Assembly: GCA_900318955.1 (NCBI GenBank)
Contig: ONMJ01000011.1
Location: 1 to 51,459 of the forward strand
DNA from: an uncultured Bacteroidales bacterium
Lineage (GTDB): Bacteria; Bacteroidota; Bacteroidia; Bacteroidales; UBA932
Length of the DNA stretch: 51,459 nucleotides
Reading direction: 5' to 3'
In this document: piece after piece, positions 42,183-51,459 of the stretch
Layout of the letters: the number at the start of each line of letters is the position of its first letter
Position numbering within the stretch: the first letter of the stretch is position 1
Notes under the pieces: model-generated
Told to the model about the DNA's origin: nothing
The model's input: the letters and a program-made list of their open reading frames with translations, nothing else
Database searches by the model: none
Position numbers and translations under genes: made by a program

Positions 42183-43184
42183 TTAATCCCCGAGAGTTGC
42201 TACCATCACAGCCTTGATGGTATGCATCCTGTTTTCGGCCTCGTCGAAAACTATGCTATTCTTGCTCTCGAACACATCTTCAGTGACCTCAACTCCGTCA
42301 AGGCCGAACTTTTCGTAGACATCGCGGCCGGCCTTCGTTTCAAGATTGTGATATGAAGGAAGGCAGTGCATAAACTTGCATGAAGGATTGCCGGTACGCT
42401 CCATAAGGGAGGCGTTCACCTGATAAGGCATGAGCATGGCGATCCGCTCTTTCCATACTTCGTCCGGCTCTCCCATTGAGACCCAGATATCGGTATAGAT
42501 GAAATCGCAGCCCTTCACTCCTGCATCCACATCATCGGTAATAGTCACTCTCGCTCCGGTTTCAGCTGCGATCTTCATGCACTCATCAACGAGCTCTTTT
42601 GAGGGCTGGAGGGCCTTCGGAGCTACAATTCTCACATCCATTCCCATCTTGGCTCCTCCGACAAGTAGGGAGTTACCCATATTGAAACGGGCATCTCCAA
42701 GGTAGGCGAATTTCACATCAGTGAGAGGCTTGTCAATATGCTCCTCGATTGTCATAAGGTCGGCAAGAACCTGGGTCGGATGGGCCTCGTTAGTAAGACC
42801 GTTCCAGACCGGAACTCCCGAATACTCAGCTAGTTCCTCAACCGTAGTCTGGGCAAAGCCGCGATATTCGATACCATCGAACATCCTTCCGAGGACGCGA
42901 GCTGTATCTTTCATGGACTCCTTGATGCCAATCTGCGAGCCGGTAGGGCCGAGATATGTCACATGGGCGCCCTGGTCATGAGCGGCGACCTCGAAGGCAC
43001 AGCGGGTGCGGGTCGATGTCTTTTCGAAAATGAGAGCGATGTTCTTACCGACCATCGTCTGCCTTTCAGTCCCGGATATTTTCGCACGCTTAAGATCATG
43101 CGCGAGATCGAGAAGATACCTCATCTCCTCAGGGGTGTAGTCGAGCAGTTTAAGGAAACTGCGGTTTTTAAGATTGTATGCCAT
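42183..43184 (-). CDS. arcB: Ornithine carbamoyltransferase, probably catabolic
   Basis: 333-aa enzyme. The carbamoyl-phosphate loop STRTR is at residues 57-61, [12 protein letters not shown] and the ornithine-binding VSMGEPDE are present, and FMHCLPSYH carries the active Cys. These features fit true ornithine transcarbamylase rather than the succinylornithine enzyme that Bacteroides fragilis uses for arginine synthesis. With carbamate kinase and a deiminase upstream on the same strand it should run as citrulline + phosphate to ornithine + carbamoyl phosphate. The 13-base gap to carbamate kinase supports cotranscription. Confidence 0.94.
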
Positions 43185-43197
43185 AATTAATTGATTA

Positions 43198-44139
43198 TTA
43201 TCTTATTATTCTTGTTCCGCAAGAAGGGTTGTCTAGCTGGCCTGCCTCTGTGATGATGCATTCTCCGCCGGTCAGAGCGACAAATCTGATGCCTGCCCTG
43301 ACCTTCGGAGCCATTGACCCTTCTGCAAACTGGCCCTCAGCGAGATACTTCTCAGCCTCTGCAATTGTCATAACATCAAGATCTTTCTGCTCGGGGGTAT
43401 TGAAATTAAGGCAGACCTTCGGGACATCGGTAAGGATATAGAACACCTCCGCACCGGTCTCCTTCGCACAGAGAGCCGAAGCGAGGTCCTTGTCAATAAC
43501 AGCCTCGACCCCTTTATGGCCGTTTCCATCCTTGACGACAGGTATTCCACCGCCTCCGACAGTCACTACTATGCAACCCGTCTCGGCAAGCTCACGAACA
43601 ATACCTATATTGAATATTTTCTTCGGCTCCGGAGAAGCAACGACCTTACGATAGCCCCTCCCTTTCGGATCTTTACGGTAGATTGCACCGGACTCGGCTC
43701 CAAGCCTGGCTGCAACTTCTTCTGTATAATAGGGGCCGACCGGTTTTGTAGGATTCATGAACATTGGATCATCCGGATCGACCTCCACCCTGGTAACGAT
43801 TGAGACGACAGGGCGGTCAATGCCTCTTCTACAGAGGACCCTTTCCATTGCTGTCTCGATAAGATAGGCTATTGACCCTTGGGTCTCCGCCCCACAGAAA
43901 TCCATCGGCATCGCCTGGAGGCCGAACTCCTTCGCTCCGGCCTCATGCTGGAGCATCACATTGCCTACCTGGGGACCGTTGCCATGCCCTATGATAATAT
44001 TATATCCCCTCTCGATCAGAGGGATAAGCTGTTCGCATGTCTGCTCCACATTTTCCAGCTGCTCGCTGAAAGTCCCTTTCTGCCCGCTTCTCAAAAGCGC
44101 GTTGCCGCCGAAGGCGACCATTGCTATAGGTTTTGCCAT
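43198..44139 (-). CDS. arcC: Carbamate kinase
   Basis: 313-aa enzyme that makes ATP from carbamoyl phosphate and ADP, releasing ammonia and CO2. The amino-acid-kinase fold shows [17 protein letters not shown] at the N-terminus, [16 protein letters not shown], and [34 protein letters not shown], all typical. It lies 13 bases from both neighbours in the deiminase operon. Confidence 0.97.
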
Positions 44140-44152
44140 AATAAACTGATTG

Positions 44153-45067
44153 TCAATCTCTTCTAAGAGGAAGAGTAGAACACCTTAAAAGCCCTCCCAT
44201 CTTGGAAATCTCCCTGTATGGTACAGTCTCTACCGTCATTCCCCACTCCTCACTCAGATGATGGTTGAGCCTGGTGAAATGCTCTTCGGTAACAACCACA
44301 TCCTCTGAGATAGAGAAAATATTGGAATTCATCCAGTACATTTCTTCTTTCGTCAGTTCGAAAACATTCTCTTTTCCGAAAAATTCTACAAGGTGGTCGG
44401 CATCGCGAGGATTCATGAATCCCGGCTTGTAAATAATAGCCTTTCCGCGACCGACCGGCATGAAGGTGCAGTCAAGATGGAGAATTCCCTCATAGGGATC
44501 AGTATCGCTCTTTCTCAGATTCAGCGGGATAATATTCTTAGACGGGAATATCATTTTCAGGTAGTCGAGAGCAAGACGGTTGGTACGCGCAGTCTTGACG
44601 GACGAATAATCAGGGAAATTGTATTGTCCGAGGAAAATAGTATCTCCATAGAGAATCACATCACCTCCCTCCACATGGACCATTTCCGGAAGGTTGTAAA
44701 TCTGCTTATAATGAATCTGACGATAGACGACATCATAGGCGTCAATCTCCCTCTGGCGGTCGGGGATGATATTGGAAACAATTATCTTATCGTCAATTAC
44801 GAATCCTACGTCGCGGGCAAAAACCTGATTGCACCCTTCAACAGGATCCGGGCGGTATACTTCGACTCCCCACTTTCTGAGGATAGCCTCAAAAGCCCCC
44901 ATCTCATGGACTATGTCTTCATCTTTCGGATAGACTCCATTGAGGACAGACTCGTATGATTTGCTGTCAAAGGTCTCCTCCAGCGAAGGGGCAGGTCCAT
45001 TGGACTCAGGTCTTCCGAGGACGACAGCCCTTAGTCTTGAAGTCTCATTAGTTACGTGTATATTCAT
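44153..45067 (-). CDS. Short arginine-deiminase-type enzyme (304 aa)
   Basis: Guanidino-group-modifying enzyme of the amidinotransferase/deiminase fold. The catalytic set is complete: Asp86 (FARDVGF), Glu133 and Asp136 (VEGGDV), His197 (LHLDCTF) and the nucleophile Cys296 (GGLLRCSTLPL). At 304 aa it is about 100 residues shorter than classical ArcA and lacks the extra helical domain. It is the first gene of a run with carbamate kinase and catabolic ornithine carbamoyltransferase, so arginine deimination to citrulline is the best guess; other guanidino compounds or peptidyl substrates cannot be excluded. No signal peptide. The promoter -7 box is 23 bases upstream. Confidence 0.85.
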   Translation of the reverse strand: MNIHVTNETSRLRAVVLGRPESNGPAPSLEETFDSKSYESVLNGVYPKDEDIVHEMGAFEAILRKWGVEVYRPDPVEGCNQVFARDVGFVIDDKIIVSNIIPDRQREIDAYDVVYRQIHYKQIYNLPEMVHVEGGDVILYGDTIFLGQYNFPDYSSVKTARTNRLALDYLKMIFPSKNIIPLNLRKSDTDPYEGILHLDCTFMPVGRGKAIIYKPGFMNPRDADHLVEFFGKENVFELTKEEMYWMNSNIFSISEDVVVTEEHFTRLNHHLSEEWGMTVETVPYREISKMGGLLRCSTLPLRRD

Positions 45068-45089
45068 AAATAATCGTGGTCTATTTTCA

Positions 45090-45097
45090 CAAATATA
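45090..45097 (-). promoter_or_regulatory. -7 box of the arginine deiminase operon
   Basis: The minus strand reads TATATTTG, 23 bases upstream of the ATG at 45067. No clear -33 element in the A+T-rich upstream sequence. Confidence 0.65.
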
Positions 45098-45136
45098 CGA
45101 ATAATTATTAAGTAAAAAGTAGATTATTTCACATAA

Positions 45137-45156
45137 ATTGAAAGTATTTCAATACT
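45137..45156. promoter_or_regulatory. Overlapping inverted repeats in the divergent gap
   Basis: ATTGAAA/TTTCAAT with a three-base centre (45137-45153) and AGTATT/AATACT with a two-base centre (45143-45156) overlap. They lie just upstream of the -33 region of the promoter for the gene at 45212 and between two divergent promoters. A regulator site is possible, but A+T-rich DNA makes chance palindromes more likely. Confidence 0.4.
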
Positions 45157-45181
45157 ATTTAATTTTTAGACTAAGATTTAC

Positions 45182-45189
45182 TATATTTG
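45182..45189 (+). promoter_or_regulatory. -7 box of the double-domain esterase gene
   Basis: TATATTTG matches TAnnTTTG, 22 bases upstream of the ATG at 45212. Upstream -33 is weak (T-rich only). Confidence 0.65.
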
Positions 45190-45211
45190 AAACCACATAA
45201 TTGATTTTCTT

Positions 45212-46951
45212 ATGAAAAAGGCCATTATTTTCTTACTCACTGTCCTATTTTCGGTCACTGGTTATTCATTCGAGAGGGAACCGGTATGGCCAAAGGGCAA
45301 AATGCCTGATCAGCAAGCTCATCAGATAGCTGCAATGACGGACGAAACGTCTCTTCCTGACTTCGACCCCGATAAGCATAGGATGCCGTACCTCGAGTGG
45401 TTCGACGCTCCTTCACCCGAAGTGCGTAACGGAGGATGCATGATTCTGATATCAGGAGGCAGTTATAAAAACTGCTGCGACGTAGGTCTGATCAAATTAT
45501 GGCGTGAAACTTTTACCGCTCTAGGATTCCAATGCGTGAATTTTGTCTATAGGACCAGCCGTCCGATTGGACTTCCTATATATCAGTCCGCATGGGAAGA
45601 CGGCCAGAGAGCAGTCAGGCTGGTAAGAAAAGAAGCCAAAAAAAGAGGTTATGATCCCGAAAAAATAGGCGTTATCGGCATGTCAGCCGGATCCCACCTC
45701 ACCCTGCTTCTTGCAACGAGTTCCCAGACTCCGGCATATCAGAGGATTGATAAGATTGACGATATCCCCTGCCATATCAACTGGGCTATCGTCAATGCTC
45801 CCGCCTATGCAACCACGGACGGAGAAGACGGGAACCGCTCTTCCATGATGGGTTATGGTCCTGAAGTCAAGCTCTCCTCGGTATTCAAATTCGACGAGAA
45901 GACCTGCCCGATGAGCCTTCATCACGGCGGGATGGACCCTTATTCCCCCGGAGGATCCACCCAGGTCTACCGTCAGCTCCGTAGGATGGGAATTCCTGCC
46001 GAGCTGCACCTATATCCCGGCAAGGGTCATGGGGCATTCGGCCTTGAAAGGGGCATTGAATTCATGAGACAGATGGGATTTCTGGGAGAGTTGGAGCCAG
46101 AAGTCAAGCTCGTGGACCGCTACCCTTCCGATGAGGCGAGGGATAGTCTCGTCAAAGAGCCTGTTTGGCCGGAAGGAAAGATGCCGAATCCCCAGGAAGG
46201 GCAATGCACTCCCTATATAGAATGGCATTTCCCTAAGGTCCTCAAGACTACAGCAATCCAGATTATATATTCCGGCGGCAGCTACACGAGCAACAATCCC
46301 GACGGGTTCGAGGTTGCCCCTGCAAGACGCTACCTCAACGACCTTGGAATGACCGTGGTGACCATGAAATACCGCACGCCGAGGCCTTCGGCAGAGAGCG
46401 GGCTGATGAAGCATGTAACGGCATGGGAGGACCTTCAGAGGGCGATCAGGCTCGTTCGTAGCAAAGCCGCAGACTACGGTCTGGACCCTGAAAGAATCGG
46501 TATAATGGGAAGCTCCGCCGGCGGACATCTTACGCTAATGGGAGTAACCTCCTCTCGCCACCAGTCTTACAACCCGATTGACAAGATTGACAAGCTTTCC
46601 TGCAAAGTGGCATGGGGTATCGGTATATATCCGGCGTATGCCCTTACGGACGGTGCCGATCAGCACAATATCCATGGCGGAAACGAAGATGAGGACGTTC
46701 TGGTACCTGAATTCAGCTTCGATCTCGACACGGCTCCAATGCTGCTGATCCATGGCGATGCCGACTATTGGGCGTCCATGAACTCAGTGAAAGTATGGGA
46801 GAAAATGAGAGCAATGGGTATACAGTGTGAACTGCATACCCTTGCACTTCGCCCCCACTGCTTCCAGCGGGCGGCTTCTCCTGGCACCGGGAGCTATACC
46901 TGGCTCGACCGTATCGGAGAATACCTCAGAGGCCTTTCTGTACTGGAATAA
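45212..46951 (+). CDS. Secreted protein with two tandem alpha/beta-hydrolase domains
   Basis: 579-aa protein with a signal peptide (MKKAIIFLLTVLFSVTGYS) and two esterase units. Unit 1 (about residues 22-300) begins REPVWPKGKMP and has nucleophile Ser158 in GMSAG, Asp242 and His273 (GKGHGAF). Unit 2 (about 316-579) begins KEPVWPEGKMP and has Ser435 in GSSAG, Asp518 (HGDAD) and His549. Both triads look complete, and the shared start motif and order of blocks (SGGSY, AWEDxQRAxRLVR, PxKI/PERIGxxGxSAG) show an internal duplication. Acetyl or feruloyl esters on glycans are likely substrates by family, but specificity cannot be read. Its stop directly abuts the convergent stop of the next gene. Confidence 0.87.
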   Translation: MKKAIIFLLTVLFSVTGYSFEREPVWPKGKMPDQQAHQIAAMTDETSLPDFDPDKHRMPYLEWFDAPSPEVRNGGCMILISGGSYKNCCDVGLIKLWRETFTALGFQCVNFVYRTSRPIGLPIYQSAWEDGQRAVRLVRKEAKKRGYDPEKIGVIGMSAGSHLTLLLATSSQTPAYQRIDKIDDIPCHINWAIVNAPAYATTDGEDGNRSSMMGYGPEVKLSSVFKFDEKTCPMSLHHGGMDPYSPGGSTQVYRQLRRMGIPAELHLYPGKGHGAFGLERGIEFMRQMGFLGELEPEVKLVDRYPSDEARDSLVKEPVWPEGKMPNPQEGQCTPYIEWHFPKVLKTTAIQIIYSGGSYTSNNPDGFEVAPARRYLNDLGMTVVTMKYRTPRPSAESGLMKHVTAWEDLQRAIRLVRSKAADYGLDPERIGIMGSSAGGHLTLMGVTSSRHQSYNPIDKIDKLSCKVAWGIGIYPAYALTDGADQHNIHGGNEDEDVLVPEFSFDLDTAPMLLIHGDADYWASMNSVKVWEKMRAMGIQCELHTLALRPHCFQRAASPGTGSYTWLDRIGEYLRGLSVLE

Positions 46952-47851
46952 TTAAGCTTTTGCCCACTGCTCCCTCAGGAGATTGACGGCAGAGGTAACG
47001 GTCTTGGAGCGTTCGCCCTTTGTACCGCACTCGAAGCTGACATATTTGTCATAGCCCATCTCCTTGAGGGCGCGGAAGCCGTCGAAGTAGACATCCTTCT
47101 CTCCGTCCTCTCCAGGCATCAGCCTGCGACCGCGGCTTGCCATGTGGACATGCTGGAGATACTGAGTTCCTGCCGACATAAAGGCGCCGTAATCGGACGT
47201 CTCTTCTTGCATGTGCCAGAAATCGCCCATGCATTTTACGCCTTCGCTCTGAGAATCCCTGCAGATAGCGGCAGCATCTGCTACTAGCCTCATATAGAAA
47301 GCCTCTTTGCGGTTGAGCGGCTCGAGAATCACCGTTGTACCGCACGAGAGGGCATATTCGCCGAGTTCATGGAGCTGCTCACAGAGATAATCGCGAGTCT
47401 CCTGGGTGTGGGGCTTGCATGGGACCTGACGGTTGAACGCAGGCACCATTATCACACCGACAGAACCGAGCTCGCCTGCCGCCGCCACTATTTCTCTCAT
47501 TGTCGAATCGAATTCTGCCTTGACTGCGGGATCTTCGGCGAGAATGAAACCTTTGAAACCTGCGCAAATCGCGGAAACTTTTATATTGCGGCCTTTAAGA
47601 GCATCCCGAATCTCATCAACTCGGGAAACCAAAGTCTTGCCGCTTGGTTCGAACCCGACGATTCCGAGATTCTCCATGAAATCAAGCTTCTCTGAAAGGC
47701 TCTCGCCGGGAGCTATACCCTCCTGGAAAGAGAGTTTGAGACCGGGGTCATTCTTTTTGGAAGAAGGACTGCAAGAAGTCAACCCTACGGAAGCGGCGGC
47801 TATTGTCGCCGCTCCGAGAAATGAGGTTTTAAAGAAATCTTTCCTATCCAT
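46952..47851 (-). CDS. Exported sugar isomerase/epimerase-like TIM-barrel protein
   Basis: 299-aa protein of the xylose isomerase-like (AP_endonuc_2) fold. The N-terminus MDRKDFFKTSFLGAATIAAASVGLTSC looks like a Tat-type signal with Arg-Lys in place of Arg-Arg, plus a lipobox at Cys27, so it acts outside the cytoplasm. The likely metal ligands of the epimerase/isomerase type are Glu177 (ILEPLNR), Asp210 and His213 (MGDFWHM), His236 (HVHMAS) and Glu274 (SFECG). It follows a Gfo/Idh/MocA gene by eight bases. From what is known of exported homologues in B. thetaiotaomicron, which act on 3-keto sugars, a lyase or epimerase step on oxidised sugars is plausible here. Confidence 0.87.
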   Translation of the reverse strand: MDRKDFFKTSFLGAATIAAASVGLTSCSPSSKKNDPGLKLSFQEGIAPGESLSEKLDFMENLGIVGFEPSGKTLVSRVDEIRDALKGRNIKVSAICAGFKGFILAEDPAVKAEFDSTMREIVAAAGELGSVGVIMVPAFNRQVPCKPHTQETRDYLCEQLHELGEYALSCGTTVILEPLNRKEAFYMRLVADAAAICRDSQSEGVKCMGDFWHMQEETSDYGAFMSAGTQYLQHVHMASRGRRLMPGEDGEKDVYFDGFRALKEMGYDKYVSFECGTKGERSKTVTSAVNLLREQWAKA

Positions 47852-47859
47852 AGTTATCG

Positions 47860-49212
47860 CTATTTGGCCTTTCCGGGGACAGGAACGGTATACTTAGACA
47901 TATCCATATGTCCGAGTTCGAGCTTCTCAGGCATGTAATCAAGCTCTGCTGCGCTGATTTCGTCCCATTCGACGGTCTTTCCGGAGTAAGCAGCCTCGCG
48001 GCCCATCACGCCTGCAAGAGAGGACATTCCGGTCTCCCCTGCCTCAACATGGGCTTCGCCCTTGCGGATATGGTTGACCCAGTCAACATGTTCGAGCACA
48101 TAGGGATTATGCTGCGAGAATTCGGCCTTTGCCGCCTCCTTGTCATACTGCCAGAGGATATTGTCATTATAATCGCGAATAGCGAAATCCTTGGAATTCC
48201 AATAACCTTTGGTACCCCTTACCTGCTCGCTGACATTATCGGCGCAGCCGTCAATCTGGCGGCACATGCTGTGGAGATGGACTCCGTTCTCAAATTCGAA
48301 ATCGACGCTGAAGTTGTCATACTGGTCGCCTGTAATCCTTCTCTGGCGGCTTCCTATGGCCGTTGCGCGAAGAGGATGCTTACCTATCATCCATGTAAAG
48401 ACATCGATATTGTGGACATGCTGCTCGACGATATGGTCGCCGGAAAGCCATTTCCAGTTGACCCAGTCGCGAATCATCCATTCCATATCGCTCCATCCCT
48501 TCTCGCGGGTCTTATACCAGAGCATGGACTGATTCCAGTAGACGTTGCCTCCGGTGATGGTACCGATGAGACCTTCCTGAATCTTCTTGAAAGACTCGAC
48601 ATAAGCACGATGGTGATGACGCTGGGTGCCGGTAACGACGCTGAGGCCCTTGGCTTCCGCCTGCTTGGCTGTAGCCATAATGCTGCGGTATCCCTTTGCA
48701 TCTACTTCGATAGGCTTCTCGAGGAAAGAATGTACTCCCTTCTCAGTAGCGTATTTGAAATGCTCAGGACGGAAGACAGGAGGAGTCGTGAGGATGACCA
48801 TATCGATACCGGAGTCGATCACTTTCTTATAAGCATCAAATCCCGTAAAGCACTTATCATCAGGTATTTCTACGTTGAAAGCAGACTTGATTTTCTCACG
48901 GGTCGAAGCGATTCTGTCGGGGAAAACATCTCCGAGAGCAGCAATAACAATACCGTCAGCAGCCTCCATGAGGTTCTTGATGGCTCCGTTTCCACGGCCG
49001 CCGCAACCGACGAGACCGACCTTCAGCTCGCGTCCCTCGATTGCCTTATCGGGAAGCTCCGGGACATAGTAAGAACCCGGTTCTTTGAGGGGTACTAGTT
49101 TATTTTTGCTTGAACATGCAGTCAGAAGGGCGCTTCCGCCAAGGACTCCTGCTGCTCCGATCGCGGTGCTTACGCCGAGAAAGGATCTTCTATTCATCGT
49201 TTTTTCGCTCAT
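47860..49212 (-). CDS. Tat-exported Gfo/Idh/MocA-family oxidoreductase
   Basis: 450-aa NAD(P)-dependent sugar oxidoreductase family member. The signal MNRRSFLGVS (Arg8-Arg9) is a classic Tat motif, and a lipobox ends at Cys33 (LTAC). The nucleotide-binding glycines are in VGLVGCGGRGNGA (residues 66-77), and the family Lys is in LEKPIEVD (Glu165-Lys166-Pro167). RDWVNWKWLSGDHIVEQHVHNIDV is the conserved substrate-side block with the His residues. Tat export of a folded protein with tightly held cofactor fits this class. The second ATG (49197) would begin right at the Tat motif and may be the true start. It lies 13 bases after the cytochrome fusion gene and eight before the TIM-barrel gene. Confidence 0.9.
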   Translation of the reverse strand: MSEKTMNRRSFLGVSTAIGAAGVLGGSALLTACSSKNKLVPLKEPGSYYVPELPDKAIEGRELKVGLVGCGGRGNGAIKNLMEAADGIVIAALGDVFPDRIASTREKIKSAFNVEIPDDKCFTGFDAYKKVIDSGIDMVILTTPPVFRPEHFKYATEKGVHSFLEKPIEVDAKGYRSIMATAKQAEAKGLSVVTGTQRHHHRAYVESFKKIQEGLIGTITGGNVYWNQSMLWYKTREKGWSDMEWMIRDWVNWKWLSGDHIVEQHVHNIDVFTWMIGKHPLRATAIGSRQRRITGDQYDNFSVDFEFENGVHLHSMCRQIDGCADNVSEQVRGTKGYWNSKDFAIRDYNDNILWQYDKEAAKAEFSQHNPYVLEHVDWVNHIRKGEAHVEAGETGMSSLAGVMGREAAYSGKTVEWDEISAAELDYMPEKLELGHMDMSKYTVPVPGKAK

Positions 49213-49225
49213 AATTATGTGAATT

Positions 49226-50764
49226 TTAATTGTTTCTGATATTATCCGGCACCTCGCATACTACGCGGAAGCCTATTCCCTTTATGTCTGAATACCACCA
49301 AATACTCTTGGGGTTCTGGGGGTCCGTCCTGAGCCATTCATCATGGCAGGTATGATCTCTCGCTGCGCAGCGGACTTTCGAAGCATCGTCAGAATAGCTG
49401 CCGCCGCGGACTACGTATTCTTCACCGGTAGAAGGCCCCTTCGGGTCGGTAGTTCCGTCTGCAATCTTGGAATAAGCGTCTTCTGCATAAAAATCTGCAC
49501 AATACTCCATGACATTGCCGAGCATATTTTTAAGACCGAAAGGATTGGCCTTCACTCTCGAAGGCTCCTGGGTCTTTGAGGAACTGACTCCTTCGTAGAC
49601 GATATACCTACCGATAACGGCAGTGTCGGCGGGAGAGAATTTCCTGATAAAAGGCTTCTTGGAGAAGTCCTTGGGATTGCCTTCGAAGAAATATGGAGAA
49701 TCAGTGCCGCCCCTTGCAGCATATTCCCATTCCGCCTCTGTTGGGAGACGATAATGCCTACCGGTTTTCAGCGAGAGCCATTGGCAGAAGGTCTCCGCTG
49801 CATAATGGGTCATGGTAATTGCAGGTCTCTCGCCCATTCCCCAGCCTTGAGCCGGAGAGCCGAAAGGCGGGGTCGGGCCACTGACGGCATCGACATCCTC
49901 TCGGGAATTATTGGCATATATAACCTCCGGAGGAGTACGTCCTTCAGACATTGTCTCATTGTAGAAACTCCAGTACTGGTCCCATGTTATTTCGGTCTCC
50001 GCAATGAAGAACGGGGATATTTTCACCTCCTTCTGAGGGCCTTCATCGCCTGAGCGGAAAGGCTCCTTCTCCGGACTTCCAATCTTGAATGAGCCTCCCG
50101 GAATGGCTACCATCTTTATCGCAGCTCCCGTACCGGGAACTGTTTCCGTGAAGGATTCAAAAGCATTTACCGTCGCGGGAGTCTCATAAATGATTCCAGG
50201 CGCAGTTTCGACCTTCCCCTGGAGCTTCTTATGCTGATATCCGCTCATATAATGGCCGGCATCAAGATGGCAGCTTATGCACTGGAGATTGAGCTTTTTC
50301 GCATTCTCCTCATAGTAGAGATGAGCGGTAATCCCATCGTCAGTAATACCCTCCGGGAAGAGATTCTGGTGGCATTTTTCGCAGCTGCGGTTGTAGACGA
50401 TCTTCACCGCATGATCCAGCTGCCGCTTGGATTCCCAGTCAATCTCATCCTTATCCTTTGTCATCTTTGCAAAGATATCCTTGGCGCCCATACGGGCTTT
50501 GGCCATTGTATAGGCGATGACCCCATCCTCCTTCAGAGGAAGGTGGCATGCGGCGCAGTCTGTAACCGTACCGCTTTCATTGATAAAATGATGGGACTTC
50601 TTCCAATTCGCATCTGCCATTTCATGGTAATGGCAGCTCATGCAATAATCGTTTGTGGATGTCTTGACGGAAACACTCTCCCAGGCAAAAACTATCGCGA
50701 GGCCGAAGACAATGGCCCCAAGCAAAAGCAATAAGACGAGACTATTCCGTTCCTTTTTTGACAT
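49226..50764 (-). CDS. NapC/NrfH-type tetraheme cytochrome fused to an FGE (SUMF1)-fold domain
   Basis: 512-aa membrane-anchored protein. One N-terminal helix (about residues 8-28) is followed by four CxxCH heme sites at residues 41-45, 70-74, 128-132 and 162-166, with the NapC/NirT-type context SHHFINESGTVTDCAACHLP. From about residue 215 a formylglycine-generating-enzyme-like domain follows: MVAIPGGSFKIGS, ETEITWDQYWSFYN, YRLPTEAEWEYAARGG, NPFGLKNMLGNVMEYCADFY and the end IGFRVVCE. The two active-site Cys of true FGE (in the stretch between RGGSY and RCAAR) are absent, so it is probably not a sulfatase activator. NapC-type modules take electrons from quinol at the membrane. The frame extends to a TTG at 50773; the ATG at 50764 is chosen. 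It is the first gene of a three-gene run. Confidence 0.9.
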   Translation of the reverse strand: MSKKERNSLVLLLLLGAIVFGLAIVFAWESVSVKTSTNDYCMSCHYHEMADANWKKSHHFINESGTVTDCAACHLPLKEDGVIAYTMAKARMGAKDIFAKMTKDKDEIDWESKRQLDHAVKIVYNRSCEKCHQNLFPEGITDDGITAHLYYEENAKKLNLQCISCHLDAGHYMSGYQHKKLQGKVETAPGIIYETPATVNAFESFTETVPGTGAAIKMVAIPGGSFKIGSPEKEPFRSGDEGPQKEVKISPFFIAETEITWDQYWSFYNETMSEGRTPPEVIYANNSREDVDAVSGPTPPFGSPAQGWGMGERPAITMTHYAAETFCQWLSLKTGRHYRLPTEAEWEYAARGGTDSPYFFEGNPKDFSKKPFIRKFSPADTAVIGRYIVYEGVSSSKTQEPSRVKANPFGLKNMLGNVMEYCADFYAEDAYSKIADGTTDPKGPSTGEEYVVRGGSYSDDASKVRCAARDHTCHDEWLRTDPQNPKSIWWYSDIKGIGFRVVCEVPDNIRNN

Positions 50765-50806
50765 ATCCCACAATATTACGAAAAAAATGGGACTTCTGCA
50801 AAAAAG

Positions 50807-51459
50807 CTACTGTTTCATCTTTTCTATGACCCTGCGATACGCTTCGGAAGCAGTTTTATTATGATCCCTTTCAAAAGACCAATCATATAGTTTTAAAGCC
50901 TCATTGTAATCGCGCTCAACACCAAGACCCTCTTCGTAACACATACCAAGATAGATATGTGCTTCGCTGTTTCCGGACTCTGCCGCCTTCCTAAGCCACT
51001 CCACCGCATCTTTATACTGATCTGCCAGACCATAGGCAAGCCCGAGTTCCATCTGAGCAGGGATATTGCCTTTTTGCGCAGCCATGGACTCGTTCAAGAA
51101 GGCCAATCCTTTATTTTTCTCAACCCCATACCAGCCGTTACGGTATATGCTGCCCATCATATGCTGCGCTACGGCCAAGCCCTGCTGGACAGCCTTATCG
51201 AGCCATTTTCGTCCCTCCTCATTCTCCCCTTTACGGAAGCAGTAAATAGCGCGGAAAAACTGAGCATCGGCATAGCCTTTTTCCGAAGCTTCAATATAAC
51301 TCATATGTTGAGCCGGCTTGTTTTTAATAGAAAGCACATACCGGTCGGTTAGAGCCAATCCGTCTTGGTTGAAGTGTGTACATTTGGGAAAAATCGGAGG
51401 AATCACAATCGTCCCCTTGCTGTCTAAGAAGCCGTATCGCCCATTCTCCTTGAACATCA
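50807..51459 (-). CDS. Sel1-repeat protein with WG-type N-terminus, cut by the window edge
   Basis: At least 216 aa; the frame is open to the window end, so the N-terminus may be missing. The visible start, RYGFLDSKGTIVIPPIF, is a WG-type beta-strand repeat. From about residue 53 Sel1-like helical repeats follow (ADAQFFRAIYCFRKGE, AVAQHMMGSIYRNG, IPAQMELGLAYGLAD, SEAHIYLGMCYEEGLGV), each about 36 residues. Such proteins are scaffolds for protein-protein contacts. It is 42 bases upstream of the cytochrome fusion gene on the same strand and could share its transcript, but this is not established. Confidence 0.8.
   Translation of the reverse strand, partial: MFKENGRYGFLDSKGTIVIPPIFPKCTHFNQDGLALTDRYVLSIKNKPAQHMSYIEASEKGYADAQFFRAIYCFRKGENEEGRKWLDKAVQQGLAVAQHMMGSIYRNGWYGVEKNKGLAFLNESMAAQKGNIPAQMELGLAYGLADQYKDAVEWLRKAAESGNSEAHIYLGMCYEEGLGVERDYNEALKLYDWSFERDHNKTASEAYRRVIEKMKQ

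Follow-up and report, generated by a model that had tools for sequence, protein, structure and literature searches.

The operon and its products

We analyzed a 51,459-base stretch of DNA (the window) from an uncultured Bacteroidales bacterium whose genome comprises 67 contigs and 2.40 Mb and is rated 98.9% complete; the window corresponds to bases 1-51459 of contig C25. Our subject is an operon of three genes at 46952-50764, all on the minus strand, encoding a tetraheme cytochrome fused to a domain of the formylglycine-generating enzyme (FGE) fold, a Gfo/Idh/MocA oxidoreductase (referred to here as GFO) and a TIM-barrel protein. Read as open reading frames (ORFs), the genes are separated by gaps of 13 and 8 bases.

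The first gene (49226..50764, minus strand) starts with an ATG at 50764, an alternative TTG being possible 9 bases upstream, and encodes a membrane-anchored protein of 512 aa. Its N-terminal part (50246..50746, minus strand) is of the NapC/NrfH type: PF03264 (Cytochrom_NNT) matches residues 7-173 with 84.8 bits against a cut-off of 24.1, and the region holds four CxxCH heme motifs (at C41, C70, C128 and C162) together with the single strong hydrophobic segment, which is N-terminal. The structure model of the fused protein has a pLDDT of 87.3. A profile alignment with NrfH (2j7a, E 1.6e-10) places K89 and D96, seven residues apart, on the Lys and Asp of NrfH (Lys82 and Asp89) that we take to be its quinol-binding site, while H47 replaces the heme-1 Met of NrfH, a position that is presumably a heme-1 ligand. 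All three residues are invariant across 59 fused sequences (the window protein and 58 of 100 fused relatives). Passages of PMC4683180 include Lys82 and Asp89 among the conserved residues of NrfH, and the alignment supports the prediction that an NrfH-type quinol site is intact in the cytochrome domain.

This cytochrome is the sole PF03264 match in the whole 2.4 Mb source genome. A phmmer search with the heme domain alone gave no match, NrfH having been found by the profile search; the VIA-align match list of the fused protein barely probes the heme part, so that absence from it excludes no family. We rejected the assignment of the cytochrome as the NrfH of a nitrite reductase, as it scores 52.2 bits against the TIGR03153 equivalog cut-off of 134.2 and no match to NrfA (PF02335) was found in the source genome at its rated completeness.

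The C-terminal domain (residues 217-470; 49355..50116, minus strand) matches PF03781 (FGE-sulfatase) with 134.7 bits against a cut-off of 23.3 and therefore has the FGE fold (SUMF1/PvdO-like), the nearest solved fold being PvdO. It was rejected as a formylglycine-generating enzyme because the copper-binding cysteine pair is absent in 121 of 121 aligned proteins: none has an active-site loop with two Cys, the loop being placed by alignment. Assignment as PvdO dihydropyoverdine dehydrogenase (NF051459) failed as well, at 94.1 bits against a cut-off of 500.

The second gene (47860..49212, minus strand) encodes the GFO, a protein of 450 aa with PF01408 (40.9 bits against a cut-off of 24) and PF22725, and a structure model of pLDDT 91.2. 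Its N-terminus, MSEKTMNRRSFL...LLTACSS, contains a Tat-like motif (RRSFL) followed by a lipobox (Cys33). Among 75 aligned GFOs (the window protein and 74 of 116 relatives), R8 and F11 of the Tat-like motif are invariant and R9 is kept in at least 90%; G69, G71 and G74 of the Rossmann motif GCGGRG are invariant, and E165-K166-P167, H267 and D270 are kept in all 75. A sequence search of the PDB ranks glucuronide-3-dehydrogenase (8tdi, 7.7e-8) first, with DgpA also listed. Only 7 Gfo/Idh/MocA matches occur in the 2.4 Mb of the source genome.

The product of the third gene (46952..47851, minus strand; 299 aa) is a candidate sugar epimerase/isomerase with a xylose-isomerase-like TIM barrel (PF01261). 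Its N-terminus, MDRKDFF...LTSCSP, shows an RK variant of the Tat-like motif and a lipobox; for this protein as for the GFO, export is predicted from such sequence motifs. A close relative is 3kws, a structural-genomics 'putative sugar isomerase', and the nearest characterised relative is the 3-keto-D-glucoside 4-epimerase YcjR (6wn6; TIM profile match 3e-34). E177, D210, H236 and E274 are invariant in 32 TIM sequences (the window protein and 31 of 84 relatives), a Glu/Asp/His/Glu quartet that we take to be the divalent-metal site of the YcjR-type barrel.

An earlier note on this DNA, made from its letters and ORFs, had described three closely spaced minus-strand genes for a protein that joins a membrane tetraheme cytochrome to an FGE-fold domain, an oxidoreductase of the Tat-exported type and an exported TIM-barrel isomerase/epimerase. 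The ORFs confirm the layout, and the two Pfam domains, the four heme motifs and the one N-terminal hydrophobic segment bear out the fusion; the export predicted for the other two proteins agrees with the conserved Tat-like residues of the GFO and with the RK variant and lipobox of the TIM protein.

Conservation of the trio

One genome-collection scan with the cytochrome protein gave 194 relatives, of which we kept the best 80; all are labelled Bacteroidota and are 59-74% identical to the fused protein. The earlier note had staked its proposal on a gene neighbourhood conserved in relatives, and this is what was found: a GFO gene comes next after the cytochrome gene, on the same strand, in 80 of the 80 kept loci, and a TIM-barrel gene comes next after the GFO in 75, the remaining 5 stretches ending inside the GFO. 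Median gaps are 33 and 9 bases, which are approximate because ORFs in the locus scans begin at the first possible start codon. Four CxxCH motifs are present in each of 101 fused proteins.

Across 198 genomes of the order, the cytochrome was found in 22, the GFO (E<=1e-80) in 23 and both in 22 (Fisher p 2.6e-28, relatedness ignored). A GFO match lies no more than 500 bases away for 21 of 24 cytochrome matches in the order, and 23 of 39 GFO matches have a cytochrome match at a distance of 5 kb or less, proportions which suggest that the cytochrome needs the GFO more than the GFO needs the cytochrome. We examined 20 of the 24 cytochrome loci as wide stretches, and likewise 20 loci from the phylum scan described below; in these 40 wide loci the immediate downstream gene is a GFO in 33, as against 4 of 461 other ORFs there. 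A GFO is present in the stretch in 19 of the 20 fused loci from the order.

Heme attachment also appears to be tied to the operon, since CcsA is encoded in 12 of the 80 relatives' loci, with ResB as well in 9, on the same strand as the operon. The source genome itself contains CcsA and ResB genes, menA and a Sdh/Frd b558-type subunit. Oxygen as acceptor via cytochrome bd was considered and set aside, as no cytochrome bd was found in the source genome (other oxidases were not searched).

Heme-free pairs and the origin of the fusion

The conserved unit is wider than the earlier note had it, as other lineages contain a pair of FGE-fold protein and GFO without hemes. A scan of 296 genomes of the phylum found matches to the fused protein in 37; in the other 36, all matches listed begin at query residue 189 or later. 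In the 20 loci of these 36 genomes that were examined wide, the FGE-fold protein has no CxxCH in 20 of 20, and a GFO is present in the same locus in 17, including L127, where an ORF lies between the two genes, and L130, where the GFO is divergent. Shorter loci (flanks of approximately 1.5 kb, 29 examined) contain a GFO in 23.

The fused forms fall together on one side of a 100/100 branch in a tree of the FGE domain (61 of 121 sequences, midpoint root), and hence one fusion is enough to explain them. As the root is only a midpoint, we take the heme-free form to be the older one from its wider spread. Our reading is that FGE-fold protein and GFO came together first, that the heme fusion followed and that the TIM barrel was added last. 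Every GFO of a fused locus has the lipobox Cys33 (81 of 81 in the near loci, counting the window, and 19 of 19 in the others), and no GFO of a heme-free locus has it (0 of 17). That the GFO is lipid-anchored in just those loci whose FGE-fold partner sits in the membrane fits a working complex.

ApbE-cluster (flavin transferase) genes lie near the heme-free FGE gene in 6 of the 20 distant loci (L117, L118, L123, L126, L131 and L132), an assignment for which one representative was confirmed by Pfam. The gene adjoins the GFO in L123, L131 and L132, and L118 is without a GFO. Such genes could provide flavin in loci that lack hemes; when the six loci were scanned for flavinylation motifs, one match was found, in one GFO. 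Upstream of the FGE/GFO pair in L116, L122 and L124 are genes for a Gluconate_2-dh3 subunit, a TIM barrel and a second Gfo protein, with a GMC gene in L116 and L122, an arrangement that is a possible link to LacABC-type systems.

Genes around the operon

In the 80 kept loci, SusC-cluster genes occur in 14, SusD in 12, a second Gfo in 30 and GH2 in 10, the gene clusters having been named by Pfam/NCBIfam from 1-3 representatives each. A 3-keto-disaccharide hydrolase (3keto-disac_hyd) is encoded beside a heme-free FGE in L119; GMC and Gluconate_2-dh3 clusters are each found in 4 of the 40 wide loci, near heme-free pairs, and ThuA-cluster genes in 3 of the 40, near fused forms. By association, these neighbours point to sugar breakdown, partly through 3-keto chemistry; most loci show none of them. 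Around the operon itself, the 8 genes scanned at 42186-51457 include neither a DUF1080 3-keto-disaccharide hydrolase (PF06439) nor GMC and Gluconate_2-dh3 subunits.

The DUF1080 genes of the source genome are on contigs C17 and C66. On C17 (L160) there is a 3-keto cluster of the BT2158 type, in the order Gfo, DUF1080, TIM, Gfo and a large DUF1080 protein, whose BT2158-type gene scores 839.1 bits with NF058561, above the cut-off of 750. The GFO of the trio was rejected as a member of that family, having no match to NF058561 at E<=1e-3.

Other neighbours were noted as well. A relative of RIC/ScdA (46.9 bits, cut-off 204.7) lies just downstream of the TIM gene at L072:11917-12630, its cluster (c4) being present in 30 of the 80 loci, and a LuxR regulator is found in 23 of the 80. 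In the window, the TIM gene is followed by a convergent gene (45212-46951, plus strand) whose stop abuts that of the TIM gene and which encodes a 579 aa protein with two alpha/beta-hydrolase (BD-FAE/PaeX-like esterase) domains. Consecutive genes at 42183-45067 (minus strand) encode an arginine-deiminase-like protein, carbamate kinase and ornithine carbamoyltransferase, and look like an arginine catabolism operon whose first gene has diverged. Promoter and terminator scans found fewer consensus sites than in shuffles, and an Rfam scan found 0 RNA families.

A possible route for electrons and its rivals

The components of an extracytoplasmic sugar redox system with a quinone-type cytochrome are well supported. 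We favor, tentatively, the possibility that the trio forms a quinone-linked extracytoplasmic (periplasmic) sugar-oxidation module, a reading that we regard as a serious candidate falling somewhat short of probable. From the observed gene set and domains, the export and heme motifs, the catalytic and quinol-site residues, the association of the genes and the menaquinone gene of the source genome, we infer a cofactor, a substrate, the C3 position, a docking role and an electron transfer with its direction, as follows: (i) the GFO would fold and bind NAD(P) before its export by Tat and would then be tethered as a lipoprotein; (ii) it would oxidise a ring hydroxyl, most likely that at C3, of a glycoside or sugar; (iii) the 3-keto product would be the substrate of the TIM barrel, which would most likely remove a proton adjacent to the ketone (epimerisation/isomerisation); (iv) the FGE-fold domain would serve as a binding or docking domain that holds the GFO and/or the substrate beside the four c-type hemes and (v) the hemes would carry electrons from the reduced bound cofactor to menaquinone, with fumarate reductase as the likely electron sink. 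Our reasoning for (iv) is that hemes and GFO are connected through the FGE domain, which both have as a partner, given the 17 of 20 heme-free loci in which it is paired with a GFO and a tree that needs only one fusion. With potentials of about -74 mV for menaquinol and about -320 mV for NAD+, transfer from sugar or bound NADH to menaquinone would be downhill, and the reverse would not. The more specific proposal that the trio is a flavin-free respiratory sugar dehydrogenase of the periplasm of anaerobes, in which a GFO with bound NAD(P) is docked by the FGE domain and wired directly to menaquinone through the tetraheme domain, is in our view doubtful.

There are a number of points that weigh against sugar oxidation linked to menaquinone. 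The main weakness is that no flavin or other two-/one-electron converter was identified between bound NAD(H) and the hemes: hydride-to-heme transfer normally requires a flavin, and we know of nothing that bridges bound NAD(H) and one-electron hemes. Gfo enzymes with bound NAD are known mostly for recycling it without an external acceptor. In addition, inositol dehydrogenases lead the results of a profile search with the GFO (DgpA is listed) and, together with TM_0414, those of a fold search (GFOR and 8tdi are also listed), and hence oxidation at C3 is not settled. The association also has its gaps. At the level of the order, 16 of the 39 GFO matches have no cytochrome match 5 kb or less away, the GFO occurs without the cytochrome in one genome (G341), and in another (G412) a weak GFO match is on a contig other than that of the cytochrome; a GFO of the same kind is not in the stretch in 1 of 20 fused and 3 of 20 heme-free loci. 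Moreover, 15 of the 20 fused loci from the order have no TIM barrel of the same family in the stretch (5 have one), and 5 of those 15 carry a different, distant TIM barrel nearby. Finally, hemes are not required everywhere by the FGE-fold/GFO pair, and electron export through a cytochrome is thus not a universal need of that pair.

An alternative scenario is that the system is reductive: menaquinol would supply the hemes with electrons, and either the GFO or the FGE domain would use them to reduce an acceptor, sugar-derived or otherwise, acting as a small terminal reductase comparable to NrfHA or Cgr1/Cgr2. Passages of PMC5953540 describe NapC/NrfH proteins as usually oxidising quinol and feeding a reductase, which is the opposite of the direction we favor and which, with the PF03264 match, speaks for this scenario. 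The cytochrome being the sole PF03264 protein found in a genome where no NrfA was found, it should serve another partner. However, the potentials given above make menaquinol a poor donor for NAD+ or a keto sugar, many named PDB relatives of the GFO are sugar or inositol dehydrogenases, and glycan-breakdown genes are present in part of the relatives' loci; we consider a reductive system unlikely.

It is similarly improbable, in our judgment, that GFO and TIM barrel are redox-neutral (oxidising, epimerising or rearranging, and re-reducing with the same NAD) while the FGE domain is a PvdO-like redox enzyme that feeds the hemes and menaquinone. A catalytic FGE domain is difficult to reconcile with the absence of an FGE-type cysteine pair in all 121 proteins, in which no metal site was recognised; furthermore, the 20 heme-free FGE partners themselves lack CxxCH motifs, and the pairing with the GFO would need another reason. 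That the cytochrome-FGE protein acts separately, in electron transfer or sensing, and is merely co-transcribed with two sugar enzymes could be argued from the heme-free pairs, since the enzymes do not always need hemes, and from the other Gfo genes that lie between the cytochrome and its GFO in L137 and L138, but is very unlikely in view of a gene order that is the same in 80 of 80 near loci, the proximity of GFO to 21 of 24 cytochrome matches and the 22/23 genome overlap.

Returning to menaquinone-linked sugar oxidation, the earlier note had proposed it together with an elimination step and a kinship to BT2158. The conserved neighbourhood, the Tat-type motif of the GFO, the quinol site and the 3-keto and glycan genes near some relatives speak for the oxidative part of that proposal. 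Elimination is not supported, as the characterised protein nearest to the TIM barrel is a 4-epimerase and not a lyase, and no DUF1080 gene is among the 8 around the operon. Kinship to BT2158 was not borne out either, the GFO having no NF058561 match and the BT2158-type gene of the source genome lying elsewhere.

An operon that pairs an exported Gfo/Idh/MocA protein with a quinone-type cytochrome offers a way to study how such proteins of gut Bacteroidales re-oxidise their cofactor outside the cytoplasm. Some of the species concerned can be cultured (Parabacteroides, Phocaeicola abscessus and others), and the trio is found together in many gut and rumen bacteria. Heme-free and heme-fused versions of one enzyme pair provide a natural comparison for added electron export, and the operon shows in which genomic setting an FGE-fold subfamily without the FGE cysteines occurs. 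If the proposed electron transfer is true, this would be anaerobic respiration fed by periplasmic glycoside oxidation.

Comparison with known systems

No description of the operon or of the NapC-FGE fusion was recognised in the top-ranked matches among titles and abstracts of open-licence literature, a weak negative as subscription papers are largely outside that set. The cytochrome resembles the NrfH/NapC quinol dehydrogenases (2j7a) in its tetraheme domain, single anchor and quinol-site Lys and Asp, and differs in the His in place of the heme-1 Met, the C-terminal FGE-fold fusion and the lack of any NrfA found. The FGE domain, in turn, shares its fold with PvdO and FGE (5hha, 1y1e); unlike them, it lacks the FGE cysteine pair, is fused to hemes and is paired with a GFO. 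There is precedent for a NapC/NrfH-type cytochrome gene beside that of a Tat-exported substrate enzyme in Cgr1/Cgr2 of Eggerthella; the passages of PMC5953540 on this pair, however, describe Cgr2 as a reductase with flavin and Fe-S, and propose that electrons flow in the reductive direction.

The trio is also comparable to three sets of enzymes for 3-keto chemistry. With the BT2158/BT2157 pathway of Bacteroides (NF058561, NF058563), as outlined in parts of PMC11300592 and PMC9007349, it shares an exported Gfo/Idh/MocA protein and a TIM gene in the cluster. Unlike that pathway, it has a GFO of a different subfamily and a heme protein, and no DUF1080 hydrolase was seen in the operon. YcjQRS of E. 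coli is cytoplasmic and NAD-coupled. It resembles the trio in combining a Gfo-type dehydrogenase with a TIM-barrel protein, here the 3-keto-glucoside epimerase itself (6wn6), whereas neither a cytochrome nor an FGE-fold protein is among the YcjQRS cluster genes named in the relevant passages of PMC11543891.

The third set is LacABC and the FAD glucoside 3-dehydrogenases. In trio and LacABC alike, though inferred from genes in the case of the trio, glycosides would be oxidised to 3-keto products by a membrane-bound system in the periplasm. In LacABC, catalysis falls to a GMC flavoprotein that is accompanied by a Gluconate_2-dh3-type subunit, and the electrons are presumed to enter the respiratory chain. 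Membrane-bound periplasmic oxidation of this kind is described for Caulobacter and Agrobacterium in passages of PMC9007349. Instead of the GMC flavoprotein, the trio has a Gfo/Idh/MocA protein and an NrfH-type tetraheme/FGE fusion.

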